From Dioscorea cayenensis subsp. rotundata (Eukaryota; Streptophyta; Magnoliopsida; Dioscoreales; Dioscoreaceae): 64,000 nt of DNA. Below are positions 747 through 50,503 of this stretch, piece after piece. Each line of letters begins with the position of its first letter. Within the stretch, counting starts at the first letter, position 1. Below the pieces are notes generated by a model. That model saw only the letters and a list, made by a program, of their open reading frames with translations. It was not told where the DNA came from and did not search any database. Location: NCBI RefSeq assembly GCF_009730915.1, contig NC_052477.1, forward strand, positions 28,778,420-28,842,419, in the 5' to 3' direction. Position numbers and translations under genes: made by a program.

Positions 747-1227
747 TTATATGGCTAGCACAAGTCCTGGCATAGACTTGCCAGCAGTCTCCGGCAGGCG
801 GCTATTCCACACCGTAGTCTCACCGGAGGAGAACGCAACCCTTGTGACGGTAAGACAAGTGTTGAAGTACTCCCTGACTTGTGTGATTACCCCATTTTCA
901 GACACTGACCAGGCATGAACCCAGAATACAGAGCCAGAGTTATCACAACCCTCAACAAGAACAGTGTGATCGAATGGCTCGACAGAGAGTGGGATAAAGT
1001 CGAATGGCAAAGTGCGATGAGACTCCGGTCAGCAGTTTCATCATGTGTTGGAAACCTGGAGGTCCATGGAACCACCACTCTATATCAGGTGCCAGAAGCC
1101 GTTGCACTGCCTCGACGTCTCGTGCGTTCAAGGCTTCATAGAGCGCAAGCACCGTCCACCGGTTTCTTTCTTCTTTGGCTTCCTCCAGTCTCTCTTTTCT
1201 CAGGTTAGCCAGCTTCTGTTCTTTCAC
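747..1227 (-). pseudogene. Wound-induced protein 1-like (SnoaL-like fold), broken
   Basis: Two overlapping minus-strand reading frames together read as one wound-induced protein 1 (WUN1/SAG20-type) protein. The upstream frame (1227 to about 1010) holds TVLALYEALN and EWWFHGPPGFQHMMKLLTG; the downstream frame (about 1010-747) holds VEGCDNSGSVFWVHAWSV, ITQVREYFNT and the family's C-terminal GKSMPGLVLAI. These are hallmark segments of the plant family, a small NTF2/SnoaL-like fold linked to wounding and senescence; no catalytic role is established. The frames join only if one base near 1008-1016 is removed. In addition no ATG occurs in frame ahead of MMKLLTG: the minus strand between the TATA-like box (1315-1324) and 1210 contains no ATG at all, and the two ATGs further in are out of frame. 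An unseen upstream exon could supply a start, but the TATA box argues against it. I call it a pseudogene, or a gene with sequence errors. Confidence 0.75.
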
Positions 1228-1314
1228 TTTCTATGATGTATATGAATGTTTGATATAGGACAATGAAAGGAGAGTAAGAGGAGATGGAGGATAGGGAAGG
1301 AGAGAAAGAGAGGA

Positions 1315-2936: not shown

Positions 2937-4581
2937 CTAATTCTGTTGCATGTTGATTAGATTCGGAAGAGGAGGCTGCATTACATGAACATGACCATAT
3001 GTTGCTGCTCTCTCAAAGGAAAGAGGCAAAATTTGGTTGACACCATTGCTTGTTCCTAATTTAGGCGGACATGAATGGCTCCGAGGTGTGTATTCGGTGC
3101 CGATCGACATCTCTATGCCGCCTTCTCCGATCACCAGCCTCCCGTCTTCTGGATCAGTCACACGTCTATAAAAACTATCTTCCTCAATGTCGTAAAAATT
3201 CCCTGTCCTGACTTCCTGAGCCAAAGCGCATGACCAACAGAAGAACCATTTTGCACAATCAGTTGCAGATGGATAGCCACAACAGCATGGATTTCCCGGA
3301 AGCTTAAACTTTTTCCTCATCTGAATTCTCCAAAATCCTCCATACAACAAACCAAAGAAACAAAGTAGAATGCCGATTATCCCCATAGCGTACCTTACAG
3401 TATCATCATCGATACTTAAAGCCGTTGCACTGAAGACCAAGAATGGAGCAATGCAGAATAGCATGAATGTGATTACGTGAAGATACATGTTACCGAAGCC
3501 AAGCCTTTCGACGTTCCAACCAAATACACAGAACATGCAGAAAAAGGATAGGCAGGCAACAGTCACGTCATCACAACAATGGAAGAGGCCTCCGATCCAC
3601 TGTGGGCTTGTGACGACAACTCCCTGATTATACAATCTCAGCTCTGTGTCTGCTGCTAATTGAATGGCAGCTTCTTCACCCTGTACTTCTTCATCATTTG
3701 TTTCGGATTCGTATCGCCTGCCTAAAGGACTCTTAACTGTCCAAACAGCAGCTATAATTGGAGCTCCAATTCCGACACCGATGGCTGTGTTTACCGCCCA
3801 GTCTGGTCGGGCTTTTCTTGAGTATCCCCAGTAGAGACCACAGAGCACATACTGAGACACAAAAGTGATCTGCAGTAAAACCACAACAAACAGCAAATGA
3901 GCTCTTTCATGAGGCTTGGGAGTAGTATCTTTGCAGTATGTCTTCCTTAATTCCAACTTATCTTCAGGTCTCCATCGATTCACAATAACCAAGTGATGGA
4001 ATAATTTCGGCTGCTGATAAACACACATTATCATGAAGAGTGCATTGAGTATTTGATTGAGTACTTCTTCCCAATTTTTTCGTCGATCTTCACCATCCGG
4101 AAAAACTCCAAGCATGACAAGTCCGAGAACAATGAGGCCAATTATCACTAAAACTAACCAAATGAACATAGCTATGTTGCTTGGGATCTTTTATCCATTT
4201 CTTGAATGATTTCATCATCGAACTCCAGTTTATCTTCCTGACAAAAGGCACACGAAATCTCCGGCTTCTTTGTTGTTGTTGTTGTTGTTGCGCCACCATC
4301 TCTGTTGTCTCAGTTTGTTCTTGATCACCTGCAGGCTCATTGCCGTGGCCGGCATTGCGATGAAAGAATGATTTAATGAACCAATCTCTGGATGGGGTCG
4401 CTCTCAAGAAGTCAAAAAACCGTTTTTCTTGTCGACTCTGATCGATAAGTCCTCGTTCAACTGCTGGCAGGTAGATCGGTATGAAATCTCCCAGCTTTCT
4501 TTTAACTCCATTTGTGTTCAATTCAATGTCTTGTTCTTCTTGTATTTCATGTTTATATGATCCATTTCCATTCATCATCAT
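2937..4581 (-). CDS. PLAC8/DUF2985 membrane protein, copy A, one-base frameshift
   Basis: Two minus-strand frames, 4581 to about 4180 (N-terminal, starting MMMNGNGSYK) and about 4180 to 2937 (C-terminal), align end to end with copies B and C. The N-terminal part has the basic KINWSSMMKSFKKWIKDP stretch; the C-terminal part has about six hydrophobic segments (first FIWLVLVIIGLIVLGLVMLG), the conserved LGFGNMYLHVITF block, and the PLAC8 signature GNPCCCGYPSATDC followed by CWSCALAQEVRT. Plant members are multi-pass membrane proteins of unknown biochemical role. Copies B and C read K(N)PxNIALF(I/V)W across this point, whereas A carries one extra base in CCCAAGC (4180-4185), which shifts the frame just before the first membrane segment. 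A (TTG)n run at 4270-4287 encodes eight glutamines. If the extra base is real, only a soluble 163-residue fragment would be made. Family assignment is secure; integrity is not. Confidence 0.85.
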
Positions 4582-4810
4582 TATCTTATGTTTTTATCTG
4601 AATTTGTTTGACAGATTTGGAATTGCCTGCAAGAACTCAATCTTAGAATTCATTAATGAAACATTAATAATCTAGTTTAACTAATAAATAACTAAAGCAT
4701 CTTATTCAACTCAGCATTTCATTCAAAACAAGATATTCTAATTAAAATTCTCTTTTTTAATTGTCAATATCTTTGATGGATGAAAACTGGTTAAACATCA
4801 CATTCTGCTT

Positions 4811-9144: not shown

Positions 9145-10791
9145 TCACAAAGTATCTGTTTTGTCTGTTGCTTCTTTTTGTATCAATTGTGAATCATGAA
9201 CAATTTCATTTGTTTCTTGTAACTGCATTGAAGGTTGAGTTGGCGGTGCCATTGGATCACTGAGAGGTAATTCACAGGACTCTTCTGATTCACTTGAAGA
9301 TGAAGGATTTAATGGTTGCAGAATAGAATCGAATTCTTCGTCGTCATCACTATCGGTATTACCAATATTATCATCGATGATATCGATAAATTCCTTCCTG
9401 TAAAGATTGCCATCTTCAATGTCATACAAATTTGCTGTTCTTACTTCTTGAGCCAATGAACAAGACCAACAAAACATCCATTGAAGGTAGTCGGTAAGAG
9501 ATTCGGAGCCACAGCAGTGAGTGTTACCCGGAAGCTTAAACCTTTTCCGCATTTCGATCCTCCAGTAGCCACCGTAGAGCAAACCAAACACGGAAATGAC
9601 TCTTCCGGTGATGCCAACGACATCAGCGATAACGTCATTGTGAATATTCAACGCCGAGACGTTGAAAATGAAGAAAGGGGCAATGCAGAGAAGGAGGAAA
9701 AGTACCATATGAACATACATGTTTCCAAATCCAAGTCTCTCCATGTTCCATCCCAAAACACAGCATGTGCAGAAGAATGACAGAGAGCAAGCGGTAACAT
9801 CGTCGCCACAATCAAACAGTCCTCCTGCCCATTCTGGTCTGCTTGCTTCCGCTTTCCTACTATACAATTTTAATCCGGTTTTATTCAATTGCTTCGTGGA
9901 AGATTCCTCTTCATTGGAATCATTCGAATTGGACTCGTACTCTTTTCCAAGAGGACTGTAAACAGTGTAAATTCCGGCAATAACTGGTGTTGCTGTGCCT
10001 AATATGACTAACAGAGTTTCAGGAATCTCCGGCCGATCACTGTTTCTGTATTCCCAGTAGAGAGCACACAAGAAATACTGTGAAAAACAAGCGATGTTAA
10101 GGAGGACAACAACAACCGTCATATGAGCCCATTCGTGAGGCCGGTAAGCTCCATTCTTGCAGTAAATCTTTCTAAGTTCAGTTATATCTTCCGATCTCCA
10201 TCGGCAAAGTAAAACCATGTGGTGAAATAGATTTGGGTGCTGATACAAACTCATTAGAGTGAAGAGAGCATTGAGGACTTGGTTGTTGATCTCAATCCAG
10301 TAGTTTTGCAAGGCTTGTGATGGAAATGCTTGGTCTAATAAGCCGAGAAGGAGTAGTGCAAGCATTACAAGGGAAACTGCGACACAGATTAACCAGATAA
10401 ATAGAGCAATGTTCATTGGATTCTTCATCCAGTCCTTGAGAACATTTAAAGTTGTAGACCAGTTGATTTTCCTTATGAATTGGACGTGAAACCGGCGAGC
10501 ACCAGCAGGAGTCGGGACTGAGAGGGAGACCTCTTCGTGTTCTTTTACAGCTTCCCGACATGCGGTGAAAGGTGATGAGAACTTGAATTTCTTGAGCCAT
10601 GCTCGAGAAGGTCGAGCTTTCAATATATCAAGTAGTCTCCTTCTCTTGCTTCTGTGATCTGAATCTTTTGTTTTAATCGAAGGAACACGGATCAAAACAT
10701 ATTCTGTAAGTTTTGGAGTGCTTGCATCTAAAATCTGTTGATCTTCACCATTTGCTTCTTCAATGCAATCATCAACCTCATTTGAAACCAT
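9145..10791 (-). CDS. PLAC8/DUF2985 membrane protein, copy B (intact)
   Basis: An uninterrupted 548-residue frame starting MVSNEVDDCIEE. Residues 1-110 are polar with a basic patch (KTKDSDHRSKRRRLLDILKA). The juxtamembrane FIRKINWSTTLNVLKDWMKN leads into a first membrane segment (ALFIWLICVAVSLVMLALLL), then about five more hydrophobic segments, including one after CRWRSEDITELRKIYCKNG and the block GFGNMYVHMVLFLLLCIAPF. The Cys-rich PLAC8 signature GNTHCCGSESLTDYLQWMFC is followed by CSLAQEVRT near residues 430-465. The C-terminal tail is acidic and serine rich (DSDDDEEFDS). Function in plants is unknown; related PLAC8 proteins act in organ-size or metal/calcium handling, but that should not be transferred to this DUF2985 branch. 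It sits head to tail between copies A and C. Confidence 0.92.
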   Translation of the reverse strand: MVSNEVDDCIEEANGEDQQILDASTPKLTEYVLIRVPSIKTKDSDHRSKRRRLLDILKARPSRAWLKKFKFSSPFTACREAVKEHEEVSLSVPTPAGARRFHVQFIRKINWSTTLNVLKDWMKNPMNIALFIWLICVAVSLVMLALLLLGLLDQAFPSQALQNYWIEINNQVLNALFTLMSLYQHPNLFHHMVLLCRWRSEDITELRKIYCKNGAYRPHEWAHMTVVVVLLNIACFSQYFLCALYWEYRNSDRPEIPETLLVILGTATPVIAGIYTVYSPLGKEYESNSNDSNEEESSTKQLNKTGLKLYSRKAEASRPEWAGGLFDCGDDVTACSLSFFCTCCVLGWNMERLGFGNMYVHMVLFLLLCIAPFFIFNVSALNIHNDVIADVVGITGRVISVFGLLYGGYWRIEMRKRFKLPGNTHCCGSESLTDYLQWMFCWSCSLAQEVRTANLYDIEDGNLYRKEFIDIIDDNIGNTDSDDDEEFDSILQPLNPSSSSESEESCELPLSDPMAPPTQPSMQLQETNEIVHDSQLIQKEATDKTDTL

Positions 10792-12055
10792 TTGCGCAAT
10801 CCAACAAAATCGATTCCGAAATAAAACTCGAAGTTTATAACAAAGGATAAACCAGAAAGAAAGAATCAGTGTTACCTGAATGATGACGAGAAGTTCATTT
10901 TAATTTCAACAAGGCTTTGCAATTCCTCATCTTTGCTTCTGAGATCAATTAAATAAAATGTTTGATACTTTAAGTTTCTTTGAAGCCATTGATGAAGAAA
11001 AAACGCGCAAAAGACTCAGATTTTCTCAATTGTTTTTTCCCCCTTTTTTTTCCTTTAATGTAAAGAGAAAGAAAATGGCGGGTGGGGACCAACCACTTAC
11101 CGAACATTCAAAGCTGCTTTGACTAAACTAGCCTCCAAACCAGTGAAATGACAAGAATGACCTGCAACAAAGCAGAGGAGAAAAGATGTCAGAAAGTGAG
11201 AATGGATGGTCAAACAAGGAATTGCAAATCTAAAGTCAATTGGTGCAGTCTGTGGCCGAAGTTTATGCCAAGTATGTAGATATAAATATCGAATAAATTA
11301 AACAATAAATCTCACAACGCCAATTGGTTAAAGAATAACATCACAGCAATCCATTGTTGACTATGTAACAGCTTGAAGCATGGATTCACATGAATGGTAG
11401 CTCTCCTTTTGAAGGACTATACTTGCTTGACATGCAGAATTAAATCCACAATGTCTGCAAAGAAAAAATAAGATAAAATAATTCGCTTATATCAGTTATT
11501 GATCAACAAAAAATTCAAACAGATTTAAATTTGTTTCTTCTTTTTAGCAGGATAAGTCTTGATACAGATGTAATTCACATGTCTGATGAAATTGTCAATC
11601 CTTCCAAATTTCAACACCAAACTTCATTGAAAGAACAGTATGAAACAAATAACCATTCTCATTTAAAGCCAGTTCTTCAATACAACATGGTATCAATTTG
11701 GTGAAAAATATATCCCCTTTTTCAAACACCTATACTCATTTCCTAAGTGTCATGCAGAGCATAATCTTTATCTTTTTTGAACAGAGTAAGACGAGAAAGT
11801 TTTTATCAACATTCATTGCCATACAAAACCAATGAACTTAACAGAAACCATAAAGACAAGAACACAAACATTACTGAAATGCATGTCAGCTACAAGATCT
11901 TGTATTGACATAAAGATTAGATCTATGTAACCAGAAAACAATCAACAAAGCCCAGAAGATCATTCATCGAAAAACTGAATAAAGAATATGAATATATGTT
12001 AATCAGTAAAAATCTAAGAGACATTCATATGTAACCAGAAAACAATCTGCAAAAT
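10792..12055. other. Intergenic between PLAC8 copies B and C
   Basis: This holds the 5' flank of copy B and the 3' flank of copy C, both minus strand. A donor-like CATTCAG|GTAACACTG on the minus strand near 10875 might mark a 5' UTR exon of copy B, but the nearest plausible acceptor is too close, so I do not annotate an intron. No other gene or transposon end was seen. Confidence 0.5.
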
Positions 12056-13810
12056 CTATGGTGAGAGGTTGTCTTCCTTTCGTATAACAGACAACACTGG
12101 TGGCTTCATTGTATGATCTTTGTCCCCCACAGCCGCCGACGGATGTTCCTCAACAACGGGCAAATGACCGTCAGATATATACCCGCCCATTGATCTATTT
12201 GGAGATGCTGTATTATTTGTTTTAAACATAAATTGACTAGCATTGCTGTGGAAAGGAGAACTCGGTCCTGACTTGAACAAAGCAGATCCATCTTCACGAG
12301 GTAATGGAGACAACATAAGTTGCGCATCATCCCAAGTTTGCTTCAAGTAAAATTTATTTTCTGCGACATCATAATAGTCCGCTGTCCTCACCTCTTGAGC
12401 AAGTGAACATGGGCAACAACAAAGCCACTGGAAGCAATCCGTCACAGCAGGTTTGCCACAACAGAAATCATTTCCAGGGAGGTTATATCTCTTTCTCATT
12501 TGAATCCTCCAAAATCCACCATAGAGCAGACCAAAAATACAAAGTATAAAGCCAGAAATTCCCAGTGCCTCCCTAACACCCTCATCATCGATATTGACGG
12601 CAGCCAAATTGAAGATAAAGAAAGGAGCCAAGCAGAACAGGAGGAATGTCACAATGTGCACATACATGTTCCCAAATCCGAGTCTATCCATATTCCATCC
12701 GAAGACACAGCAGCTGCAGAACAAAGAAAGGTAGGCAAGAGAAATATCGTCCCACAAATCAAACAAGCCTCCTACCCATTGAGGATTACTTTCTGCAATT
12801 CTGTTGTCTTCCCTTGACATGAAAGAGTACTTCTTTACGACTGAAGGAGAGTGAGTATGACTTCGTTTACTACGACTACCACCAACAGAGGTCTGATCCT
12901 GAGCTTCTTGATCAATTTCAACCTCATAATCCCTCCCTAGAGGACAAAGAATATTATACACACTTGCAATAGCCGGAGAAGCCATAGAGACTGAAACACA
13001 TAGTCCAACTCCAACTGCAGGACGCTTAGATCGGGGATATCCCAAGTTAAGACCACACAGAGCGTACTGAGCAAAACAATTCAGGTGGAGAAAGAACAAC
13101 ACAATCATCATATGCATCCGCTCGTTAGGCTTGTATGTTCCATTTTTGCAGTAAATTTTCCTGAGCCTTAAGATATCTTCCGGTCTCCATCGGCACAAAA
13201 GCACAAGATGATGAAATCGCTTGGGATGTTGATAGAGGCACATAAGAGTAAACAACGCATTCAAGATTTGGTTGTTAACTTCAAACCAGGTGTCTCTTTG
13301 TGATTTCTTTGTCAAAACACCATTCAACATTCCAGTCATGACGAGGAATAAGATAGCCCCAGAAATGGCAACAAAAGTCACCCAAACAAAGAGTGCCATG
13401 TTAAAAGGATTTCTTATCCATTCTTTGCATAATACCCACAGTGAAGCCCAATCAATTTTCTTAAAAAAAGGCACATGAAAATTCTTAGAAGAACTTCCAT
13501 TGGCAGGAGAAGAAACTGAAACTGAAAATGATATCTCATCTCTTTCATTGGCAACCCGCTGGAACTTGGAAGAAGGGGGAGATTGCTTACCCTGAGATCC
13601 AAATTTCATATGTTTAGCTCTACCACTGAAGGCTGTGGCAATGTTCTTAAATTTACTTGTCTGGATTTTTTTCTCACTAAGCAATCCTCTCTGAGATGTT
13701 CGAACATAAAACGGGATCTCACCATTGCTTCCATCATTATTTGGTCCTTTCGGAGATTTTGAATCTTCCTGAATTTCATCCGCGCACCTTTTATCACTAG
13801 CTGCAACCAT
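12056..13810 (-). CDS. PLAC8/DUF2985 membrane protein, copy C (intact)
   Basis: An uninterrupted 584-residue frame starting MVAASDKRCADEIQ, the longest of the three tandem copies. The order matches copies A and B: a polar N-terminal region, FFKKIDWASLWVLCKEWIRN next to the first membrane segment (NMALFVWVTFVAISGAILFL), the conserved CRWRPEDILRLRKIYCKNGT loop, further hydrophobic segments, the DRLGFGNMYVHIVTFLLF block, and the PLAC8 signature GNDFCCGKPAVTDCFQWLCC with CPCSLAQEVRTADYYD. A tail of about 110 residues rich in Ser and Pro (SPLPREDGSALFKSGPSSPF) follows and could carry regulatory phosphosites, which is inference. The central loop is longer than in A and B (SRSKRSHTHSPSVVKKYS). Confidence 0.93.
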   Translation of the reverse strand: MVAASDKRCADEIQEDSKSPKGPNNDGSNGEIPFYVRTSQRGLLSEKKIQTSKFKNIATAFSGRAKHMKFGSQGKQSPPSSKFQRVANERDEISFSVSVSSPANGSSSKNFHVPFFKKIDWASLWVLCKEWIRNPFNMALFVWVTFVAISGAILFLVMTGMLNGVLTKKSQRDTWFEVNNQILNALFTLMCLYQHPKRFHHLVLLCRWRPEDILRLRKIYCKNGTYKPNERMHMMIVLFFLHLNCFAQYALCGLNLGYPRSKRPAVGVGLCVSVSMASPAIASVYNILCPLGRDYEVEIDQEAQDQTSVGGSRSKRSHTHSPSVVKKYSFMSREDNRIAESNPQWVGGLFDLWDDISLAYLSLFCSCCVFGWNMDRLGFGNMYVHIVTFLLFCLAPFFIFNLAAVNIDDEGVREALGISGFILCIFGLLYGGFWRIQMRKRYNLPGNDFCCGKPAVTDCFQWLCCCPCSLAQEVRTADYYDVAENKFYLKQTWDDAQLMLSPLPREDGSALFKSGPSSPFHSNASQFMFKTNNTASPNRSMGGYISDGHLPVVEEHPSAAVGDKDHTMKPPVLSVIRKEDNLSP

Positions 13811-13864
13811 TATCTTGTCTGCTATGCCTAAGCTTCTTTGAATCTATGCAACCTTCAGTGGATT

Positions 13865-25722: not shown

Positions 25723-27717
25723 TCAAAAAGAGGCTTCTTTATTATTATCAATGTCTCCAGGTTGTTCAGAGCTCTGTTCTACTTGGCTCTGGCGTTTGTA
25801 GAGCTTAGCACACAAGATGAAGTATCCGTAGTTGATGGCCGCTAACGCCGCCAGCAACCAGTACACGTTGTCAACCCTTGCACTGTTGATATTGTTTGGT
25901 AGCCATGTGGTGGTTCGTCGAATGAGGTTGATCACCGCGGTGCTGATATAGAATCCTGTGGCAATGATCAGCGCAATCAGCCCTGTTGCTGTGCTCTTCA
26001 ATGACTTGGGGAACTCCTGGTAGTAGAATGCTATTTGTCCAGGGAAGTGGAAGGCTTCTCCCAGTCCGGTGAGTGCAAAGGGTAGCACCAGCCACAATAC
26101 TGGCATTGGCACCGTCCACAGAGGGTCACCGGTAGCATGGTGAGCTCTTACTATATCAGCTCTTCTTTTCTCAACCATCCCTGATGCCATCATACTTACC
26201 ACGTTAAGCAGGCAACCAATGCCGATACGCTGGAGCGGTGTCGGATTGAGGCCAGCTAGCTTTTGCAATGCAGGGTAGATTATGCGATCGAGGAGGGACA
26301 GTGCGACAGCATTGGCAGCAAGGGCGATGACTATCAGTGATGCAGGGTGGGATGGAGAATCTGGCGCTGAGTCTGCGGTTCATGGTAAGACCCTGAAGGA
26401 TTGAGAGGTTCATCTGGATGGCAATGCACACGGTAATGAAGATGGTGGAAGTCCACAATGGTATGATTTTGATCAAAGTCTTGAGATCTTCCACTTGTTG
26501 TACTGTACAGAGTCTCCATTTCTTCGCAACAGAGCCATCGGCATTGCCATCCCTTTCAGTGACCAATGCAGCTTTGTTCAAGAAGCTGCAAAGTAGTCAG
26601 AGGTATGAATGTATAAACATGAGTTTCTCATCCTATCAATTTAAGTTTTTACTCCATCATACCTGAAGAAATTTGTAGGAAGCGCAGGTGAAACCGGATG
26701 CGCACTATTGCTTTTTGCCTGATAATATGCAGAGCTGTCTTTGGCTGGGGCTAGCTTCCTCTTCTTCAATGCCGCGATGACAACTTGAGCCATGCTGGTG
26801 AATGGACTGCCCTTTATCCTGGTCTGCCGGTAGTATCGGGAGCCAAGAAGAAGAGTGGCCACAGCCACGGCACTCGCTGCTGTGCATATGCTGAATCCCA
26901 TAGTCCAACTCACACTGTCTTCAATGTAGACGATCACGGTCGCTCCAATGATTGAGGAGATTGAGAGCAACACCAGATACCAGTTAAAGAACACATTCTG
27001 ATCCCGGGGTTCATCGAACTGGTTAGCCCCCATTGCCATACTGTTAAACCGTGTTCCTCCCGTGCCTATTGACATCAATGCGACGGCCCCATAGAGAACA
27101 GCCAGCTGCCCTGATGATGCCGGCTTGCAGTCGCTCCCTCCAGGAGCACATCGTGGCGGCTGGAGCCCAGGTACGGTGGCTGTCAGCGTGAACATGATCA
27201 TCGACTGCAATTACAAACAATTATATCATATTAAAAAACACAAAAACAAATGAAACATAAAATGCCTGATCAGTGATATAATTACAATGAGTGAGATGAT
27301 GGAAGAGTAAACGACGACACGGTAAGAGCCGAAGTAAGAGTCAGAGAGTATGGCACCGAAGAGTGGGGCGACGCTGGTGCAGCCATTGATGATGCCGGAG
27401 ATTTGAGCAGCATCAATAGGCTTGACGTTGAAGTGCTGGATGAGGTACACTATGATGTTGTTCACCGCACCACTGAGCGCAATTGATAACCAAAAGATGT
27501 TCCCTGTGTTTAGTGTATTTAGTAGTGATCAATAAGGTTTATGAATGGCATACATGCATGCATGGATTGATGTATAGAAAGGTTGAGAAAGAGAGAAACC
27601 TGAGATGAAGGGGAAGGTGATCCAGCCACCACGTTTGCCTTGGAGTTGAGATTCACCGTCGTGGATTGCAACCTCTTCTTCTCCCTCTTCCTCCATTTCT
27701 TCTCTTGGTGGAATCAT
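25723..27717 (-). CDS. NRT1/PTR family transporter NPF-1 (NPF2-like), one-base frameshift
   Basis: Four exons: 27717-27600, 27503-27286, 27204-26663, 26585-25723, with phases equal to those of the two other NPF genes here. Exon 1 carries GKRGGWITFPFIS; exon 2 DAAQISGIINGCTSVAPLFG and AILSDSYFGSYR; exon 3 GTGGTRFNSMAMGANQFDEP, FFNWYLVLLS and YIEDSVSWTMGF; exon 4 WRLCTVQQVEDLKTLIKIIP, GEAFHFPGQIAFYYQEFP and DNVYWLLAALAAINYGYF. These are signatures of the plant NPF (PTR2) branch of the major facilitator superfamily, about 12 membrane helices; order and sequence best fit subfamily NPF2. NPF2 members move nitrate, chloride, glucosinolates or hormones, and the substrate cannot be read from sequence. 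The ExxE[K/R] proton-coupling motif is absent. Exon 4 has one extra base in a CCC run (plus positions 26345-26347), breaking the frame in the middle of helix 8 or so. Translation could start at either of two in-frame Met codons (27717 or 27693); a more upstream ATG at 27801 would add a low-complexity leader and is less likely. Confidence 0.88.
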
Positions 27718-28032
27718 GGAGGAGGGAGAAAGAAAGAGAGAGAGAGAGAGACTTGAAAGGTGAAACAATGGAGGGAGACAGAGGAGACAGAGGGAGGACA
27801 TTTAGTTACATTTCAAGAGGTTGAATTGTTCTTAGGAGACCGTCTTTGTCGGAACACTTAGAAAATAGAATTACTATTTATTGTTACAAGCCCACATGTT
27901 TTTACCACACATTAATACAATAAAACAGGGGAAGAAAACAAAACAAAAGAAAACGAGGAGCATCTCACAACCACAAGAACTGAAAGTCCAATACTGCAAT
28001 TCAGAGTTTCCAACAACTGCATATATGCACTG
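27718..28032. other. Spacer between tandem NPF genes
   Basis: Promoter and 5' UTR side of NPF-1 and the 3' flank of NPF-2, both minus strand. A GA-rich run at about 27731-27752 (CT repeat on the coding strand) sits directly upstream of the NPF-1 start, as often seen in plant 5' UTRs. No separate gene is visible. Confidence 0.5.
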
Positions 28033-30675
28033 TTATGTAACTCTCTTGTTCTTATAAAGCTTAGCACACAAAATATAGTAAGCAAAGTTGATACTAGCCA
28101 TCACTGTCAACAACCAATAGACATTCTCTAATCTGGATGAGTTCAAGTTATCTGGCAGCCAACTGGTGGTTTGCCGGACCACCGCCACCAGCCCTGTGCT
28201 GGTATAATACCCTATAGACAAAATGAGGGCAATTATCCCGGTTGCAGTGCTTTTCAAAGATTCAGGAAACTCCTGGTAGTAAAATGCTATCTGTCCCGGA
28301 AAATGAAAGGCATCTCCGAAGCCGGTGAACACATAAGGCAGCACAAGCCAAAATGCCGACATTGGCGCAATCCAGTTAGGTTGGTTTTCAGCTTGGTGTT
28401 CATGAACAATGATTGAACGCCGGTGCTCGACGAGAGCGGAGGCAGCCATGGCGGCGATGTTGAAAACTTGGCCAATGCCGACACGTTGGAGGGACGTGGG
28501 AGTATAAGAGGTGAGACGGTGACAGAGAGGATAGATGACACGGTCAAGAATGAAGAGAGTGAGGCAAGTGGCGATGAAGGTGGTGACGGAAAAGGAACCG
28601 GCGGGGACAGAGAAATGGGCGCCAAGGGAACGATCCATGTTTAGAGCTTGGAGGATGGAGAAGCTGGTTTGCGTGGCGATGCAGACACTGATGAAGATGG
28701 TGGAGGTCCAGAGTGGAACAATGCGGATTAGTGTTTTTAGATCCTCTACTTCTTCAACAGTGCACAAGCTCCATGGCCGGGCTATGCTGCCGTCTATGGC
28801 TACGTCCCCTTCTTGTATCACCGCAGCTCTGTTCATGCACCTGCATGCATGCGTAGATTCATGCTTTGAAATTCAGTTGACTAAAATTTAATCAACGAGG
28901 AACTTTACATATATCTATATTTGGATATATATATCTCTAGAAAGGCAAAACATGAGTGATCGGATTATGATAAATAGTAATATTGTGTGTTGCACTGTTT
29001 TACTGTTTATTAATGTTGAGGTTGGATTGAAATCCAATGACGTTCATAAAAAAATGATTCCTTGATTTATTTGATTTTTAATGCATAATAAATGTGTACT
29101 TGATTTATGTGGATATTTGGATAATGATAAGAGTAATGTGGAAGAAAATTTATATAACTAACCATAAATAGTTCTCACTTGTTAGTGTATAAATGGATTT
29201 ATATATTTCTATAAGATTTTTTGTTGTGCCTATATATATTTTTTTGTATATTTGTATATGTATATATTACTTCCATTAGAAGGCTGTGGTGGGGGCTCAT
29301 GATGGAAAAACTTGACATCTCAGTAGACAGTGATGGTCCATTCCCACAAACAGAGATGAGTTGCTATAATTGGAGATTATCATGCACGACCTCCCCACCA
29401 CCATCATGTATGAGTCATAAGGCACTTACCATTCTTTTATTAATAAAAACTAGTTCTCTATGGTAACATGTTGAACAATGGTGCAAAACCTATATACATC
29501 TAGAATTAAAAGCTCATGTTAATTTATCAACCTTTGCCAAACCTCTATATTTTACTTAATTTTTTAAATTATACTTAAAGATGTCATCTGTCCACAAATC
29601 AAGAAATCTCAATGGTATTTTAAGAAGAAACCAAGATAACAATAATCTCGCCTGAAAGTTTGAGAAGGTGGTTGATCAGCTTTCTCCGATGGCCGGTGGT
29701 AGTAAGTCACCGTCTCTGTCTCCGCGGGCAATGCAAGCTTTCTCTTCCTAATCCCAGCCACAATGACACGTACAATTGCCGTAAATGGGTTTCTCTTTCG
29801 TCCCCGGCCGACGATAATACTTCACTCCAAGAAGCATAAACAGAACAGCCAGCGCATTCACTGCTGAACAAATCCCATATCCAAGCTCCCAGCTGATGCT
29901 ATCTTCAATGTAGATAATAACAGTATTTCCAATGACCCCTCCCATGTAGAAAACTATAAAATACCAATTGAAGAAGACGCTTTGGTCATCCACATTGCTC
30001 AACTGGTCAGCTCCCATGGTCATTGTGTTGAACCGTGCGCCACCAGTCCCCACAATAAGCAAGGCTAAGGCTGTGTATAAAAGTGCTAGTTGGCCACTGC
30101 TCGCCGCAGTGTGCGAGTTTGTTGGTCTAAATGCTTTGATTCCGGCTGTGAGTGTGAGTAAGATCATACTCTATATGTTTACACAAACAAACAAACAAAG
30201 AAGAATAATTAGAGCATTTGGGGATGAAATATATATATATATATATATATATGAGGCTGTGTAGTCTAATAATGTCTGTAGGTTCAAAATTTAGCACGAC
30301 CTTGTGGACCGTTGGATTTCAATCCAACAATTTTGAGATATGAATAAATAGTAATCACTTGTTATAAATAATAGTTCAATTTTTTTTAGTACTGTAACTC
30401 AACAAAACACAATTATTCAAATCTATTTCTATAGTTGCAGAAATCCTTTATATATATATATTAAAAAAAGAAATGTTTTTGAAACGCAAGAATTTTTAAA
30501 ATTTACTAAAACCGTAGTAGGAACTATATGCCCTTTTATGATGTGTATTTTTTATACATAACATTTTTAAAATATTGACCATCACATATAGGATTTGGTC
30601 ATCTGCTTTTAATTAAATACCAACGTACCAACAACCTTATTGTATGATGATTTTGTAATATATGTATACACAATA

Positions 30676-30712
<37 letters not shown>

Positions 30713-31581
30713 TAGATCTATGGGAAAGAGATTGAGTAGTTGTGTTTGTTCTGTTTATTTTTTTTTAATAAATTTGATGATTAATTTAAAAAAAAACCAA
30801 GATTAGGGATTTGAATTTATGATCTTTACTATTCTCGATTGGATCATAAAAAAACAAAAAAAGCTTTTTAGGAATAAGACTTTATGCCTAAACATTAGCT
30901 AGAGATATAGTCTGTGATATTTTTTTTTCCGCCTAGCTGTTAAGGGAGTAAGGGGTGTGTATGGCCTCAGCTATAGCTTATGAGAGAACTCAAGCGCCAG
31001 TTGGCCTAAAGTCTAGTGGTAATTATTATGATATATATATTGAAATACCGAACTTATTTTGACCATAAAACGTACAAAGTCCACCTTTATAAAAAATATA
31101 AATAAAATAAATAAATTAAACCGTACAAAGAGAGACGCTACTGTAGAGAAGGTGATGACGGGGAGGCAGCCGAAGAAGGAGTCGGAGATGATGGCGCCGA
31201 GCAAAGGAGAGAAGCTGGAGAAGCCAGTGATGATATTGAAGAGCTGAGCTGCGTCTATGCTCTTGAAGTTGTAGTATTTTATCAGATATACTATGAAGTT
31301 CCCCATGGCTCCACTGAATATCAATGACATCCCAAATACATTCCCTTGCAATCAAATTATAATACAAATATAATTAATATCAGAAGAATATATATATAGT
31401 TTCATTTAAGCTTCCAATTTAATTGAATATATATAGAGAAAATTAACTATATATATATATCTATAGATGTACCTATGATGAAGGGAAATGTGATCCAACC
31501 TCCTTGTTTTGGAGTTGTTTGTGATTCATGATCATGAGCAACATCTGATTGAGACTGATCATCTTGTTCCTTGCTAGCCAT
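28033..31581 (-). CDS. NRT1/PTR family transporter NPF-2 (NPF2-like), one-base frameshift and GC splice donor
   Basis: Four exons: 31581-31473, 31344-31127, 30170-29652, 28840-28033. Exon 1 encodes MASKEQDDQSQSD to KQGGWITFPFII; exon 2 GNVFGMSLIFSGAMGNFIVY to FGCLPVITFSTVASLF; exon 3 LTLTAGIKAFRP, GTGGARFNTMTMGADQLSN and YIEDSISWELGYGICSAV; exon 4 CMNRAAVIQEGDVAIDGSIA, WSLCTVEEVEDLKTLIRIVP, HFPGQIAFYYQEFPESLKST and the closing KLYKNKRVT. It is a multi-pass transporter with the same layout as NPF-1 and NPF-3, and close to NPF-3 (both have HAA/VAHDHES near the N-terminus). Exon 3 has one extra base in a four-base homopolymer (plus CCCC, 29802-29805); removing it would bring back the reading frame that matches NPF-3. 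The donor of intron 3 is TTTCAG|GCGAGA instead of the GTATG seen at the same site in NPF-1 and NPF-3. Without the extra base the product is about 550 residues. ExxE[K/R] is absent. Confidence 0.88.
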
Positions 31582-41375: not shown

Positions 41376-42265
41376 TATGGTTTAAATCCTATAGATATTC
41401 TTAGTCAAATCATTCTTTCTCTATATATATATACACTTTAAAGAAAGGTGGTCGCTTGTATTGTCTTTTGCCAGAATTATTTGGAAAGTATTTTGCTTTG
41501 AAAAATTAATATTTTCAATTGATTTTTTTTTTATTATAATAAGATTCTCACAATCTTGCCATTTGGAGGTGCAACAGCTTTATGTGTTCTTTTTTATTAG
41601 GTAATTGTGTATCTTAGGCTTTTTTTTTTTTATATCCACTCTAGAATATAGAATATAGAAGTATTTTGGAGGTTTGACCTTGAGGCTTTGCTTATGGACA
41701 TTTTTTTAAATTTTTTTGGATGAAATGACACTATCATGCATATTTTTAATTTTAAATCATTTATGTTAGTTAAAAAATTGTTATAAAAACTAATCACATA
41801 TTTTTTCTAAGTTTTGTAGCTCTTGAGGATGAACTCGAGGATTTGATCTCTATTGTTAATAGATGTCTTGGGTTCTTGGATCCCAACGTAAATGATTCTA
41901 TGAACATGATAATAATTAATCCAAGTTATGGTTAAGCTCCATTTTAGCTCTGGCTTAACTTAAATGGAACATCCTCTCACATATTATTGTTTGGCAATTA
42001 CTATTTCTCTTTTTATAAGATAGTTTGTAAGTATCCATAACTAATGGATTTTGTATTATGGTTCCTCTTTTTTATAATTATATTTTTAATAAATTTATTC
42101 TTCATCCACTGCACCTTTATTAAAAAAAAAATTATGCTCTCCGATGTTTCTAATATATTCTGAAAATAAAGAAAATAGAACAAAATAATTATTTTCAGAT
42201 ATTTGATAATAATTAAGCAGCATAAATTTTCAAATACTAAATATTTTGGAACATGAAAAAAGATT
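41376..42265. other. AT-rich spacer between two transposons
   Basis: No coding sequence or terminal repeat seen between the LINE-type tail and the left MULE terminus. Two T-runs near 41526-41540 and 41621-41632 may be further small retroposon remnants. Confidence 0.45.
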
Positions 42266-42758
42266 GGTTTAATTGCCGTACAGGTCCCTGTAATTATGTA
42301 CTTTCGACCCTTTTTAGTCCCCTCGCAATATTTTTTTCGAGTACAACTAGATCCTCCTATTTGATCGATTTGGGCCTTTTTCGATCCGAGGCGAGATGGC
42401 GTTAACTTCACTATTTCTTTTTGTAGTGACGTGGCTTTTTATTACAAAAATAAGGTGTAAAAGATCTTTCGACTAGGTGATAAGGTGGCAATCGGATCCG
42501 GATCCTAAACTGGATCCGAATTGCAAAAAGTGAAATTTGTTATCAAACCAGCTGAAGAACCCACACCTCCATCTCCCACCCTCAGCGCCGTTGGAGAACA
42601 CTTGTCGTCCGTACGAAACCCTCCTTCCCCTCAACTCAGGTGAAGCCCACCCACCTCTAACCGGTTGACAGCCTCCACTCCAAGCCCTCGTTAGTGCAAC
42701 CAGGGTTTTGCAAACCCTCAATCACTCCAAGGTGTCGTCGGTGCAGCAAAGGTTTTGC
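42266..42758 (+). repeat. Left terminal inverted repeat of the MULE
   Basis: This pairs with the reverse complement of about 47343-47826. Shared landmarks read inward: GCCGTACAGGTCCCT, AATTATGTACTTTCG, CGATTTGGGCC, GACTAGGTGA, GGATCCGGATCC, GGTGAAGCCCACCCA and AAGGTGTCGTCGGTGCAGC. The arms differ by scattered substitutions and short indels, so the insertion is not very recent. Confidence 0.88.
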
Positions 42759-42950
42759 AAACCCCCCTCCATTCCAAGCCGTCGTCGGTGCAGCCAGGGT
42801 TTGCTTCATTCCAAGCCGTCGTCTGTGCAGCCGAGGTTTTGCAAAACCCTCTTTCATTCCAAGCTGTCGTAGGTGCAACATGGTTTTGCAAACACTCCTG
42901 AACTCTAAGCCATCGTTAACGTAGCCAGGGTTTTGCAAACCCCTCTAGAT
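42665..42950 (+). repeat. Subterminal minisatellite, ~40-45 bp units
   Basis: About six imperfect units built around AAGCCGTCGTCGGTGCAGCC followed by AGGGTTTTGCAAACCC. The left end carries more units than the right (where only two remain near 47345-47420), so the array has expanded at one terminus. Both strands stay open by chance because the unit is GC-rich, giving spurious frames. Confidence 0.8.
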
Positions 42951-43380
42951 AGCCATAAAGAATCTGGTAATGCCCCTATCTTGCACTCTTTTCTCCTTTT
43001 TTAGTGAATTTAGCCGTTGCTTGTGTTCACTTGTAAGTGTGCCAACAATAGCTGGTTAGGTCTTTTTTGTGGCCCTACAATGAAAGTGACTGATCTTATT
43101 TAGATGATTTAGAAAGGCATATATTGGCTTCATTGATGGCTTGTTTCTATGTGTGGGCCACCTCCTTGATATATATTTATAACTTTGGTGTCAGATTGGT
43201 TATTTTTATTATTCAGATTTGTGGCATCTCATGGTTCTATTGTGTAATACTTTTTTTTCATCATAATATTGAATGTGTTCTAATTCTTGTGTTGTGTTCC
43301 TTATTAGTTTGTTGTAGTGGTATAGTTAGTTTCTTTTAAAATTAGTAACTAGTTTGCATTTATGTGTTGTTTAGTTTATC

Positions 43381-46300
43381 ATGGCTGCTGAGAAAAAATA
43401 TACTATTAAGTACCACCATGGAGGAACTTTATTAAAGGAAGGGGAGATTAAATATGTCAATGGTTTTATTGATGAAGTTACTGTTGATCCAGAGAAGACT
43501 TGTTACTGGGATTTGTTAGGAGACTTAAAAGAATTAGGCCATGATATTACAAATTCAGTCAATTTGTTCTTTATGGATGCTTCTGGGGCATTGAAGGTTA
43601 TTAGTGATGATGAGGGAATTATGGTATTAGTTGACCATTTAATGAGGCACTGGACAACAGACATTTACGTTGAATTTTCAAGTGTTAAACACAACAAGAC
43701 TATACCAGAAAGTTTAATGGTTGAATCTGAAATGGCTGAAGCTGAAAGTGATATGGAATTGAACATGAATGATGATATGGAACATGAGAATGGATCTGAT
43801 TCAGCTGAAGATGATGAAGAGAGGATTGTAGATGATCAACTATTTAATAACAACTCAGATGAAGATGAAGAAAGAGAGGAAACCATGAAGAAAGTGAACA
43901 AATATGTCAAATTGAAAAAAAGAGTACAGGAAGTTGCATACGAAAGGGATAATTTAGAGTCTTATGCTATGAACAGGGAACCACAAGGAAGTGAGTTTGG
44001 GAAAGTTGGTGGGTATGAAAGTGACTACTTTGAGTCATTAGACCCTGGCAGTAACAGTGATAATAGTAGTGGATCGGAAGCTGATGATGCTGTCAGACAC
44101 AAATCAAGCAGAAAAATCCATTACCCTGCTATCCCATTGGAGGAATTCAGATTGGATCTTAGGTTTTTAGATTTAAAAGAATTCAAGAATACACTTGTTG
44201 ATTTCTCCACAAGGAAAGGTTTTGAGTTTAAGTATATAAAGAATGATACTTCGAGGGTAAGGGCCAAGTGTTCTGCCAAAGATTACAGTTGGTTAATTCT
44301 CTGCTCATGGTGTAGTACCAAAAAGATATATGTGGTGAAGCATTATGTCTCTACACATTCATGCCTTTTGGGTGTTACAAAGAACAAAAGAGTTACAACA
44401 CAAGTAGTGGTGAAGAAATTTGATGATGTGATAGTTCCATGCCCGTCATTAAGCCAAGGCATTTAAAAGCACTAGTTAGGAAGAAGACTGGTGTGTTCGT
44501 TACTGACAGGGTCTGTAAAAATGCCAAGGTATTGGTTCTTAAGAAAGTTGAATAACAATTTATCGAAGATTTCAAGGTATTGAATAGTTATGCATTACAA
44601 TTAAAAGCATCAAACCCTAGAAGCAATGTGGTAATTATTTCTGAAAGATTGAGCCCAAATGCATTACCAACCTTCCAAAAGATGTATATCTCTCTTACAG
44701 CTGCTAGAGAAGGTTTTTTGGCTGGCTGCAGGAGGATCATAGGTCTCGATGGGTGCTTTTTAAAAGGTCTAATGAAAGGGCAATTACTAGGGGAAGTAGG
44801 GAGGGACAGGAACAACCAGATGTTCCCTATAGCTTGGGCAATTGTGGAGAAAGAAACCACTGAAAGCTGGAGTTGGTTTCTTAAGCTGTTGCAATTAGAT
44901 CTGTGTATTGAAGATGGTCTCGGATGGTCACTTGTTAGTGACATGCAGAAAGTAAGAAAAATTTATGATTGGCTTTTTATTTGATTGTATTTGAATTTGT
45001 TTGATTCATTAAATGTTTTACCTTTCTTCCAGGGATTAATTCATGCAGTTAAAGAACTTCTACCATTAATCGAGCACAGGATGTGTGCAAGGCATATATA
45101 TGCTAGATGGGGGAAGCCACACCAAGGGAAAGAGTTTCAAATCTAATTTTGGAAATATTGCTAGGGCTACAAATATACCTGAGTTTCAAAAGAAGCTACA
45201 GCAGATGAGGAATTTGAATGGAGGAGAGAAGGTAGTAGAGGAGTTATTAGAGAAATGGCCTGCCAATGGTTGGTGTTGGGCTTTCTTCAATGATGTTGTC
45301 AAGTGCGATGTTATCGACAACAATATGTGCGAGACATTCAATGGAGTGATGGTAGAAGCTAGGAGCAAACCAGTAATAACAATGCTTCAAGAAATAAGAA
45401 GGTATGTCAAGGATAGTTGTTAAGAAGTGCTATACCATTAAATGGAAAGTTAATTTTGGACCAAACATAGTTAGGAAGCTTGAGAAAGAGAGGACCAAAA
45501 GCTCAAAATGGCATGTTGACTGGAATGGGGCTGCAGAGCATGAAGTGTTCTGGGATGATATGTTGTTGTTAGAGAGGGAAAGTTATGTTGTTAGGTTGGA
45601 GAATAAGAGTTGTTCCTGTGGGAAATGGGACAAGAGTGGTATTCCCTGCCAGCATGCTTTGGCAAAAATTGCTTTTCAAAGAGGAGATCCGCTTAATTAT
45701 TTATCAGTATGGCTCACCAAGGAGAAATACCTACAAGCATACCAATTTCCAGTGAGTCCACTAAGAGGCAGGATGTTCTGGCCCCCATGTGAGGAAGGTC
45801 CTCTGCTGCCTCCTATAAGCAAGAGGATGCCTGGAAAACCTACAAAGAAAAGGAGAAGGGAACCATTGGAAAAAAAAAAGCAATACAAAAATTTCAAGAT
45901 TTGGTAGGATCTTCAAATGTGGAATTTGTGGAGTTCAAGGTCACAACAAGCTGACTTGTCAGAAAAAACCTAGCAGAGTAAATATTTTTTACTATTAATA
46001 TGTTAACTGCTTATTTATTCCCATTGTGAATTCATTGTTCTCAAAACAAATTTACAATGAATGTGTAGGACACAACTGCAAATGTTGGCTCAAGTATCCA
46101 AGGAAGAAAAAAGGCTGATGCTGCATCAAGGCCACTAAGACAAGTAGGCGATGATGTATCTCTGCTCAAATTTTGATAGTAAAGTAAAAATTTATGCTAT
46201 TTTCAACCTAATGTTTATCAATACTCAGTGTTTGCTTATTGAATTCTAATGAACTGTTTGTGACTTACAATGAAATGCAATATCTAATTACTTGATTTTT

Positions 46301-46609
46301 GCGAGGGGTGCTCACGAGTGGAGAAATTATTGTTGGAGCGAAAATGATGCATGACACATCATATATTACGCTAGTGAACTAATGGTATTTTTTTGTTATG
46401 TTACGCATATCATACACAACTTAGGGCATCATTAACTCTTTAGAGGATTAACACAATTTTTTGGGTTATGATATTTAGGCTAGGAGGGATGCAAGGCTTG
46501 CTGCACAAGCAAAACTAAGTAAAGAAAGTGCTCAACAGACATATACAACAATTGATCAAAACTTAGATCTCCCAACACAACAGAGTATAACAACAGAGCA
46601 TAACAACTG
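43381..46609 (+). pseudogene. MULE transposase, decayed
   Basis: Domains are in normal MULE order but in several frames. 43381-44466: PB1-like start (KKYTIKYHHGGTLL ... YVNGF), an acidic linker, and the MuDR domain (EFKYIKNDTSRVRAKCSAKD, then CLLGVTKNKR). 44580-44984: the DDE catalytic core (RIIGLDGCFLKGLMKGQLLG, AWAIVEKETTESWSWFLKLL, GWSLVSDMQK). 45085-45423: WCWAFFNDVVKCDVIDNNMC and ETFNGVM. 45404-45907: the SWIM zinc finger (CSCGKWDKSGIPCQHALAKI) and a basic tail. Further on, a CCHC-like CGICGVQGHNKLTC (about 45918-45960) and a last exon-like piece ending at 46609. Frame changes near 44440, 45110 and 45410 and an in-frame TAA near 44553 disrupt it. An intron (about 44951-45032) appears spliceable. 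It is related to plant MULE transposases, cut-and-paste enzymes; this copy is inactive. Confidence 0.88.
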
Positions 46610-47342
46610 AAGCAAGGAAACACTTCTCAGCCTACCTCCTTTTTCTTTTGTATTTTTGACTCAACCTTGGATAGTGGATGTTTTGTAAATTGCCTGTCAA
46701 AACTGATGATATGTAGTACTGTAATTTTCTTGTCTACTGACAACAGCAATGGCATTTGGTGTGGTGTTGTTTATGCATAAATCTATGTGGTTTAATATGT
46801 ATGACAGATGTGAAATTTCAACTATGCCAATGAAATATTGTTTGCAGTGTAGTCAATGTTTGCAGCTACTCTTTACTTTAATTAATGTTATGACAGATGT
46901 GAAATTTCAAAAATGGCTTTTCATCAACATGCACACCAGGTTGCTTTTGAAAAGTCTAATTTGCTCTTTATCTGTTTATTGAGACCTTTGTCAAACCAAA
47001 TTGAAGTGTATGGACTAGAAATACAAACTGCTAAGGTAATACGACAGTAATATTTAAGTCTTCAAGACCTTTTCTCTCTTCAATCTTCTTTATTTATTAG
47101 CTAAATGTAATTGTCATTGAGAGTTGGAAAGACACTTTCAAGATCACCAGTTTGTTATCAAAATTAAATGTTCATTTTCCATGCTATGTTGCAGCGGATA
47201 CCTGTTGCTGAATTCATTGAACAACCTTGCATTCAAGATGACAACATGTTTAAGAAAATCATTGACATTTACATGGCATGTCTCAAAATTTGATGGAAAA
47301 TCATCTTGTTTGTACTACAATGTGATTGATCAACCACAAGAT

Positions 47343-47826
47343 TTAAAAAACCTTGGCTGCACCGACGACACCTTGGAGTGATTGAGGGTTTGCAAAACCC
47401 TGGTTGCACTAACGAGGGCTTGGAGTAGAGGCTGTCGGCTGGTTGGAGATGGGTGGGCTTCACCTGAGTTGAGGGGAAGAAGGGTTTCGTATGGACGGCA
47501 AGTGTTCTCCACTGGCGCCGAGGGTGGGAGATGGAGGTGTGGGTTCTTCGGCCGGTTTGATAACAAATTCCCCATTTTGCAATTCGGATCCGATTTAGGA
47601 TCCGGATCCGGTTGCCACCTTCTCACCTAGTCAGCATCTTTAAACCTTATTTTGTAATAAAAAAAGCCACGTTAATACAAAGAAACGACGAAATTAACGC
47701 CATATGCGCCTCGGACTGAAAAGGCCCAAATCGATTAAATAGAAGGATTTAGTTGTACCAAAAAATATTGCAGGGACTAAAAGGGCCGAAAGTACATAAT
47801 TATAGGGACCTGTACGGCAATTAAAC
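47343..47826 (-). repeat. Right terminal inverted repeat of the MULE
   Basis: Mirror of 42266-42758. The end reads GGGACCTGTACGGCAATTAA AC at 47806-47826. Its inner boundary falls at the TTTAAAAAACCTTGGCTGCA segment, where similarity to the left arm stops. Confidence 0.88.
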
Positions 47827-48009
47827 AAAAAAATTTCACTAATGGTTTTCTCTCCACCTTACAGTATTTATGTAATTAACTTACATATTTATAATATTGT
47901 TTTAATATCCTAACATAGGGTAATAAATATAAATAAAAAAAGAAATCATTATTCACTCGGGTCTTTGAGAATAAAATTTTCATAATATGAACTACAACAT
48001 CAACAACAA
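47827..48009. other. Short spacer between MULE and the NPF copy
   Basis: AT-rich, no feature seen. Confidence 0.4.
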
Positions 48010-49466
48010 CACCCAGAGAAGTCTACAGGCATTACTATTCAGAGTTTGCAGCAACAACTACGTTCTTGTCTCTCTTGTACTTATGAAGCTTAGCGCACAA
48101 AATATAGTAAGCGAAGTTGATACTAGTCATCACTGTCAACAACCAATAGACATTCTCTAATCTGGATGAGTTCAAGTTATCCGACAGCTCAACCGGTGGT
48201 TTCGTCGGACCACCGCCACCAAACTGTCGTCGGCATAATACCCTATAGACAAAATGACGGCAATTATCCCGGTTGCTGTGCTTTTCAAAGATTCAAGAAA
48301 CTCCCCGGTAGTAAAAATGCTATCTCGTCCCGGATAATGAAAGGCTTCTCCGAAGCCGGTGAACACATAAGGCAGCACAAGCCAAAATGCCAACATTGGC
48401 GCAATCCAGTTAATTTGGCTTTCAGCTTGGTGTTCATGAACAATGATTGAACGCCGTTGCTTGACGAGAGCGGAGGCAGCCATGGCGGCGATGTTGAAAA
48501 CTTGGCCAATGCCGACGCGTTGGAGAGACGTGGGAGTATAGGAGGTGAGACGGTGACAGAGAGGATAGATGACACGGTCGAGGATGAAGAGAGTGAGGCA
48601 AGTGGCGATGGAGGCGGTGACGGAAAAGGAGCCGGCGGGGACAGAGAAATGGGCGCCAAGGGAACGATCCATGTTTAGAGCTTGGAGGATGGAGAGGTCG
48701 GCTTGGGTGGCGGCGCGATACATCGATGAAGATGGTGGAGGTCCGGAGAGGAACAATGCGGATTAGTGTTTTTAGATCCTCTACTTCTTCAACGAGTGCA
48801 CAAAGCTCCATGGCTGAGCTATCTGCCGCTCTATGGCTACGTCCCCTTCTTTTATCACCGCAGCTCTGTTCATGTACCTGCATGCATGCTTAGATTATAC
48901 TTTGAAATTCAGTTGACTAAAATTTAATAAATGAAGAATTTTACATATATATTATATTTGGAGAGGCAAAATATGACGTCAAATTATCAGTTGTTGCATT
49001 ATGATAAACATTAGTACTATATGTGTTGTACTGTTTCACTGTTTATCAATGTTGAGAGGTGAATTGTCAGTAATGACGTCTATAAGAAAAATTTGATACT
49101 GTTGGTTTCTCAAATCTTTTAATGCATAATAAGTCCGTACTTGATTTATGTGGATGTTTGGATAATGATAAAAGTAACATGGAAGAAAAATTTATATAAC
49201 CAACCATAAATAGTTCTCACCTGATAGTGTATAAATTGATTTATATATTTCTGTATAATTTTTTGTTGTGCGTATATATATATATATATGCATATTTGTT
49301 TATGTATATATTACTTCCATTAGAAGGCTGTGGTGGGGGCTCATGATGGAAAATACTTGACATCTCAGTAGACAGTGATGGTCCATTCCCACAAACAGAG
49401 ATGAATTGCTATTATTGGAGAATATCATGCACGAGCTCCCCACCACCATCATGTATGAGTCATAAG
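48010..49466 (-). repeat. Segmental copy of the 3' half of NPF-2
   Basis: This stretch aligns in the same orientation with about 28005-29435, covering the NPF-2 3' end, exon 4 and most of intron 3. Landmarks outside coding sequence confirm it: GTTGCACTGTTT-type segments, ACTTGATTTATGTGGAT, CCATTCCCACAAACAGAGAT and CACCACCATCATGTATGAGT. Similarity stops right after GAGTCATAAG at 49466, about 40 bases before the assembly gap. The copy lacks exons 1-3, at least up to the gap. Confidence 0.9.
48035..48877 (-). pseudogene. NPF exon-4 pseudogene (copy of NPF-2 exon 4)
   Basis: Matches NPF-2 exon 4 but is split over frames. It preserves NMDRSLGAHFSVPAGSFSVT, DRVIYPLCHRLTSYTPTSLQ, RVGIGQVFNIAAMAASALV and AFWLVLPYVFTGFGEAFH, then becomes PGRDSIFTTGEFLESLKS (compare PGQIAFYYQEFPESLKS in NPF-2), a pair of compensating indels. 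Frame breaks also fall near 48210-48240, 48700-48760 and 48795-48830. The acceptor CATGCAG and the stop (TAG, 48035-48037) are kept, and the C-terminus KYKRDKNVVVAANSE is longer than in NPF-2. Without upstream exons it cannot encode a transporter. Confidence 0.9.
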
Positions 49467-49503: not shown

Positions 49504-50503
49504 NNNNNNNNNNNNNNNNNNNNNNNNNNNNNNNNNNNNNNNNNNNNNNNNNNNNNNNNNNNNNNNNNNNNNNNNNNNNNNNNNNNNNNNNNNNNNNNNN
49601 NNNNNNNNNNNNNNNNNNNNNNNNNNNNNNNNNNNNNNNNNNNNNNNNNNNNNNNNNNNNNNNNNNNNNNNNNNNNNNNNNNNNNNNNNNNNNNNNNNNN
49701 NNNNNNNNNNNNNNNNNNNNNNNNNNNNNNNNNNNNNNNNNNNNNNNNNNNNNNNNNNNNNNNNNNNNNNNNNNNNNNNNNNNNNNNNNNNNNNNNNNNN
49801 NNNNNNNNNNNNNNNNNNNNNNNNNNNNNNNNNNNNNNNNNNNNNNNNNNNNNNNNNNNNNNNNNNNNNNNNNNNNNNNNNNNNNNNNNNNNNNNNNNNN
49901 NNNNNNNNNNNNNNNNNNNNNNNNNNNNNNNNNNNNNNNNNNNNNNNNNNNNNNNNNNNNNNNNNNNNNNNNNNNNNNNNNNNNNNNNNNNNNNNNNNNN
50001 NNNNNNNNNNNNNNNNNNNNNNNNNNNNNNNNNNNNNNNNNNNNNNNNNNNNNNNNNNNNNNNNNNNNNNNNNNNNNNNNNNNNNNNNNNNNNNNNNNNN
50101 NNNNNNNNNNNNNNNNNNNNNNNNNNNNNNNNNNNNNNNNNNNNNNNNNNNNNNNNNNNNNNNNNNNNNNNNNNNNNNNNNNNNNNNNNNNNNNNNNNNN
50201 NNNNNNNNNNNNNNNNNNNNNNNNNNNNNNNNNNNNNNNNNNNNNNNNNNNNNNNNNNNNNNNNNNNNNNNNNNNNNNNNNNNNNNNNNNNNNNNNNNNN
50301 NNNNNNNNNNNNNNNNNNNNNNNNNNNNNNNNNNNNNNNNNNNNNNNNNNNNNNNNNNNNNNNNNNNNNNNNNNNNNNNNNNNNNNNNNNNNNNNNNNNN
50401 NNNNNNNNNNNNNNNNNNNNNNNNNNNNNNNNNNNNNNNNNNNNNNNNNNNNNNNNNNNNNNNNNNNNNNNNNNNNNNNNNNNNNNNNNNNNNNNNNNNN
50501 NNN
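49504..50503. other. Assembly gap, exactly 1000 Ns
   Basis: A placeholder of unknown true size. Long open frames reported across it are artefacts of the N run. It lies between the NPF copy and the CACTA element, so the 5' end of the latter and possibly more NPF sequence are missing. Confidence 0.99.

Follow-up and report, generated by a model that had tools for sequence, protein, structure and literature searches.

Gene content of the window and the frame breaks

The window, that is, the whole 64,000-nt stretch of DNA analysed, looks like plant nuclear DNA, judged by its gene families. It contains three genes of the PLAC8/DUF2985 type, a cluster of NPF (PTR2) genes, one WUN1-like (WI12) gene, a LOR gene, a TOM1-like gene and transposon remains (Table 1). 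PLAC8 (PF04749) and DUF2985 (PF11204) both scored above the gathering score in the PLAC8 genes, as did PTR2 (PF00854) in exons 3 and 4 of NPF-1 and NPF-2. Exon 4 of NPF-3 is related to the structures of NRT1.1/NPF6.3 and NPF2.10. A start ATG is visible in NPF-1, NPF-2, NPF-3 and PLAC8-A. Usable splice sites flank all nine introns of the three NPF genes as drawn by eye, GT-AG in 8 of them and GC-AG in 1; the GC donor, CAG|GCGAGA at position 29650, belongs to intron 3 of NPF-2 and is matched by GT-AG in both paralogs. At its 3' end (28033-28060), NPF-2 stops about 8 or 9 residues before NPF-3 and the copy at 48 kb.

Table 1. Features of the window, with positions counted from its first letter.
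Feature	Position	Strand	Structure	Reading frame
WUN1-like (WI12)	747-1230	(-)	open frames and Pfam	two frames; switch about 1008-1016
PLAC8-A (DUF2985 + PLAC8)	2937-4593	(-)	first Met 4581	two frames; switch about 4179-4190, where DUF2985 starts
PLAC8-B	9145-10899	(-)	reference	single open frame, stop to stop
PLAC8-C	12056-13843	(-)	reference	single open frame, stop to stop
NPF-1	25723-27717	(-)	4 exons; ATG 27717 or 27696; GT-AG introns	switch in exon 4, about 26345-26352
NPF-2	28033-31581	(-)	4 exons; intron 3 GC-AG	switch in exon 3, about 29787-29805
MULE element	42264-47829		inverted ends 88% identical, flanking broken MuDR transposase pieces (DBD, MULE, SWIM domains)
Fifth copy	48035-49466	(-)	duplicate of NPF-2 exon 4 (exon part 48035-48887) and part of intron 3; 89% identity over 48070-49466; adjoins N gap	several frame changes
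1000-N gap	49504-50503	.
NPF-3	54220-57216	(+)	4 exons; GT-AG introns; reference	unbroken

A first-pass annotation had described frame breaks in WUN1-like, PLAC8-A, NPF-1 and NPF-2, each as one extra base compared with the paralogs. All four breaks were present at or next to the proposed sites, and both flanks were readable in each. We observed no further stop or shift in the parts of these four genes that were read. The sign of the breaks was less uniform in its support. In NPF-1, tblastn with the intact proteins of the window gave two frames meeting at 26345-26352, and the two pieces of exon 4 matched PTR2 profile positions 177-243 and 257-384 (Pfam). The exon 4 alignment holds one single-base column that is absent from NPF-2, NPF-3 and the fifth copy, a few bases from the run to which the break had been assigned, and this column bears out the +1 sign. 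The breaks in NPF-2 and PLAC8-A fit +1 by the coordinates of their tblastn pieces. Those of NPF-2 exon 3 lie in two frames and overlap at 29787-29797, with the later frame open back beyond the run at 29802-29805. Queries with the intact paralogs of PLAC8-A gave two pieces in different frames overlapping at 4183-4190, and its DUF2985 match starts at profile position 6, compared to position 1 in PLAC8-B and PLAC8-C (Pfam). In these three genes the flanks match the paralogs in order.

The sign of the WUN1-like break is the least secure. The downstream piece matched positions 8-104 of the WI12 (PF07107) profile (E = 3.9e-32, 111 bits against a gathering cut-off of 27), and the upstream piece matched positions 1-33 of SnoaL_2 in a different frame (8e-06, 26.8 bits, just below the cut-off of 27). 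Because no paralog of this gene was found among the self-matches of the window, the comparison with paralogs does not extend to it, and its +1 sign, with which the data are consistent, is presumed. The first-pass annotation had treated this gene as an exception for want of a start. An ATG is indeed absent from the open frame 952-1230, which is weak ground for an exception, as a 5' exon upstream of this frame is possible.

The long genes reported as unbroken largely were so: PLAC8-B, PLAC8-C and NPF-3 are intact, and the change of frame in the TOM1-like gene appears by eye to be an ordinary GT-AG intron; LOR was inspected as two Pfam-matched exons only. The list of broken genes was incomplete, since it had overlooked the heavily broken NPF copy at 48 kb.

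Constraint on the broken genes and decay of the fifth copy

We calculated dN/dS from NG86 counts, with exon 3 of NPF-2 and PLAC8-A each split at the break. Between NPF-2 and NPF-3, dN/dS was 0.29 in exon 2 and 0.30 in exon 4; in exon 3 it was 0.35 for the part before the break and 0.32 for the part after it. After its break, PLAC8-A gave 0.24 and 0.22 against PLAC8-B and PLAC8-C, compared to 0.25-0.28 between the two intact genes; before the break, where the N-terminus is poorly conserved, the values were 0.27 and 0.54. NPF-1 exon 4 gave 0.14-0.20 where dN/dS was defined, with dS near-saturated or infinite. In the NPF-1 and PLAC8 comparisons dS ran from 1 to saturated, so these are little informative.

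Protein relative-rate tests (n = 9, of which 8 set an intact copy against NPF-2 or PLAC8-A, NPF-1 serving as outgroup only) showed no significant excess of changes in the broken copy. The broken copy was ahead in one of the eight, PLAC8-A before its break (18 versus 13 unique changes, P = 0.47). The lowest P value was 0.077, and the faster copy in that test was the intact NPF-3.

To polarise the changes in the fifth copy we used NPF-3 as outgroup over 806 bases; the counts exclude 3 positions with three different bases and 1 deletion at the edge of the alignment. After the two copies parted, NPF-2 acquired 10 specific substitutions, 7 of them silent (neutral expectation 0.26, P = 0.004), which indicates that purifying selection acted on NPF-2 during much of the period that followed the duplication. 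In the fifth copy, 8 of the 37 specific substitutions were silent, in line with the neutral expectation of 0.259 and different from the share in NPF-2 (P = 0.007, Fisher's exact test). Exons 1-3 of this copy are absent, or were lost within the adjoining gap.

The indels of the fifth copy were uneven. In its exon we counted 10 insertions and 2 deletions, each of a single base. They are clustered, the longest indel-free stretch being 390 bases (P = 0.003), and substitutions are denser near them (16/217 versus 21/589, P = 0.035). The duplicated intron, compared without an outgroup, has 13 gaps at which the fifth copy is the longer and 5 at which it is the shorter. We considered PacBio-style insertion noise as the source of these indels, and perhaps sequence errors lie on top of real decay. 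Outside the noisy patches 5 of 21 substitutions were silent; the substitutions look neutral even there, and the fifth copy is thus a real, neutrally evolving pseudogene whatever its indels are. It provides a local yardstick for genuine decay.

Measured against it, the four broken genes differ. Relaxed selection or further lesions, the marks of a pseudogene, are found in the fifth copy and were not seen in NPF-2 or PLAC8-A, each of which has a lone break with constraint on both flanks, as a consensus error would leave it. For NPF-1 and the WUN1-like gene it is mainly the lack of further breaks that sets them apart from pseudogenes.

Origin of the four breaks

These data suggest that the four breaks are probably residual single-base insertion errors in the draft consensus, which is itself probably of long-read type, and that the genes are probably intact in the plant. 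The consensus of the draft plant assembly would have kept single added bases at four sites, and WUN1-like, PLAC8-A, NPF-1 and NPF-2 would each read in one frame in the actual plant. What we infer is that the consensus is in error, that it was built from long reads, and that the same holds for NPF-1 (saturated dN/dS) and the WUN1-like gene. Draft error is preferred to fourfold pseudogenisation because no signs of decay were seen where these could be tested. The first-pass annotation had leaned the same way; its preference is supported, and its attribution to systematic homopolymer error finds no support in the short runs involved.

Four breaks in 12,070 coding bases (hand-drawn gene boundaries that omit exon 1 of NPF-2 and some of LOR; gene lengths approximate) correspond to about Q35 (Poisson range Q31-Q40). 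This is near the quality published for a polished nanopore plant assembly (PMC8389630). A sorghum nanopore paper notes that leftover indels might give falsely truncated genes (PMC6242865), and a barley paper describes indels as common in long-read assemblies (PMC8290290). As with residual long-read indel errors, lone one-base breaks interrupt genes that are otherwise conserved, and their rate is near Q35; the present case differs in that each of the four sites is compatible with an added base and none lies in a long run. The PLAC8/DUF2985 and WI12 families are recognisable by Pfam domain matches on the downstream pieces, the difference here being a frame interrupted once.

We weighed whether all or some of the breaks are instead genuine frameshifts of very recent date, either fixed or still segregating, that cost each gene its C-terminal part; the loss would begin within exon 4 in NPF-1, late in exon 3 in NPF-2, at the start of DUF2985 in PLAC8-A and in mid-domain in WUN1-like. 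With frameshifts of that age the constraint signal would look no different. Tandem NPF copies do die here: NPF-2 has a neutrally evolving relic at 48-49.5 kb, with 8/37 silent changes (neutral expectation 0.26), comparable to tandem-duplicate NPF (NRT1/PTR, Pfam PTR2) pseudogenes. Two marks also speak against intactness, the GC donor of NPF-2, in the very exon that carries its break, and the missing ATG of the WUN1-like gene. However, none of the four genes shows a second lesion, NPF-1 and NPF-2 have one break each, and constraint is kept in NPF-2 and not relaxed in PLAC8-A. With the indel rate of the fifth copy taken as neutral, the lack of any additional indel across about 5,528 bases would place inactivation within less than 4% of the age of that copy if all 12 of its indels are believed, or less than 22% if only 2 are. 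Four independent recent losses would be required in one short window, and we regard recent frameshifts as unlikely. Restoration of the frame by programmed frameshifting, or by a short intron that escaped recognition, is extremely improbable: nothing was found in its favour beyond readings open on both sides, the paralogs of three of the four genes are unbroken at the same place, and it would have to occur in three unrelated families.

A special case of draft error, whose odds overlap with it, is systematic over-calling in homopolymers. Three of the four sites do coincide with C/G runs (3, 3 and 4 bases), and all four breaks are +1 or consistent with +1. The runs are short, however, and the WUN1-like site (TTTGCC) cannot be clearly assigned to a single run. 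No break was seen in the 33 coding runs of at least 5 bases, including 8 A/T runs of 6-7. This comparison has low power, as the probability that all four breaks fall in runs of at most 4 is 0.59 even with an error weight of (L-1)^2. Taken together, over-calling specific to homopolymers seems quite doubtful. As for direction, four breaks of the same sign give P = 0.125 (two-sided) alone, and the value for insertions versus deletions pooled with the fifth copy (14 versus 2, P = 0.002) draws on 12 indels that are clustered and probably of other origin than the four breaks. With residual consensus error as the preferred reading, the four genes should not be annotated as pseudogenes or losses from the draft.

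Changes at CAG/CTG sites in the fifth copy

Between 48150 and 48830 the changes in the fifth copy are concentrated at CAG/CTG and gain CG. The motif was picked after the data had been seen. In the exon of this copy, CAG/CTG was the most altered of 32 trinucleotide classes, with 14 of 27 sites changed, 10 of them with a new CG; NPF-3 also differs from NPF-2 at some of the 14, and at site 28154 it shares CGG with the fifth copy, so that the change there may be NPF-2's own. Where the motif is common to NPF-2 and NPF-3 (11 sites), the fifth copy is altered at 6, all 6 with CG. Half of its insertions (5/10) fall strictly inside CAG/CTG, which offers 54 of 805 slots (P = 0.0003). CG dinucleotides number 33 in NPF-2, 48 in the fifth copy and 37 in NPF-3. 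Methylated CG is normally lost, the opposite direction to the gain seen here.

Tentatively, the patchy, insertion-heavy noise in the fifth copy may be non-random and could reflect a base-calling artefact linked to methylation at CHG sites of plants, with 5mC read as if in CG, or unusual insertion-biased mutation in a silenced duplicate. That such mis-calls would take the form of CG is our own inference. A paper on plant nanopore base-calling states that methylation differences between lineages likely reduce accuracy (PMC9749173), and a search of its main text for CHG gave nothing. If the artefact reading is true, the damage in silenced plant duplicates would be systematically overstated, and the pattern would be relevant to plant assemblies if it recurred genome-wide.

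At the four main breaks, CAG/CTG sites, checked by eye, were not found as a rule. The pattern was not repeated in the duplicated intron, where 0 of 7 NPF-2 sites were changed and 5 of the 12 CAG/CTG sites of the fifth copy itself differ, none with a new CG. Between the ends of the MULE element (unpolarised), 5 of 10 CAG/CTG sites in one end differ, 4 with CG, and 5 of 10 in the other, 5 with CG. Several of these cases are plain CAG/CGG or CTG/CCG exchanges and can be explained by ordinary methylated-CG decay. Two further differences between the MULE ends, a CTG/CTCG gap of one base and a CAG/CGA swap, are of the kind seen in the fifth copy.
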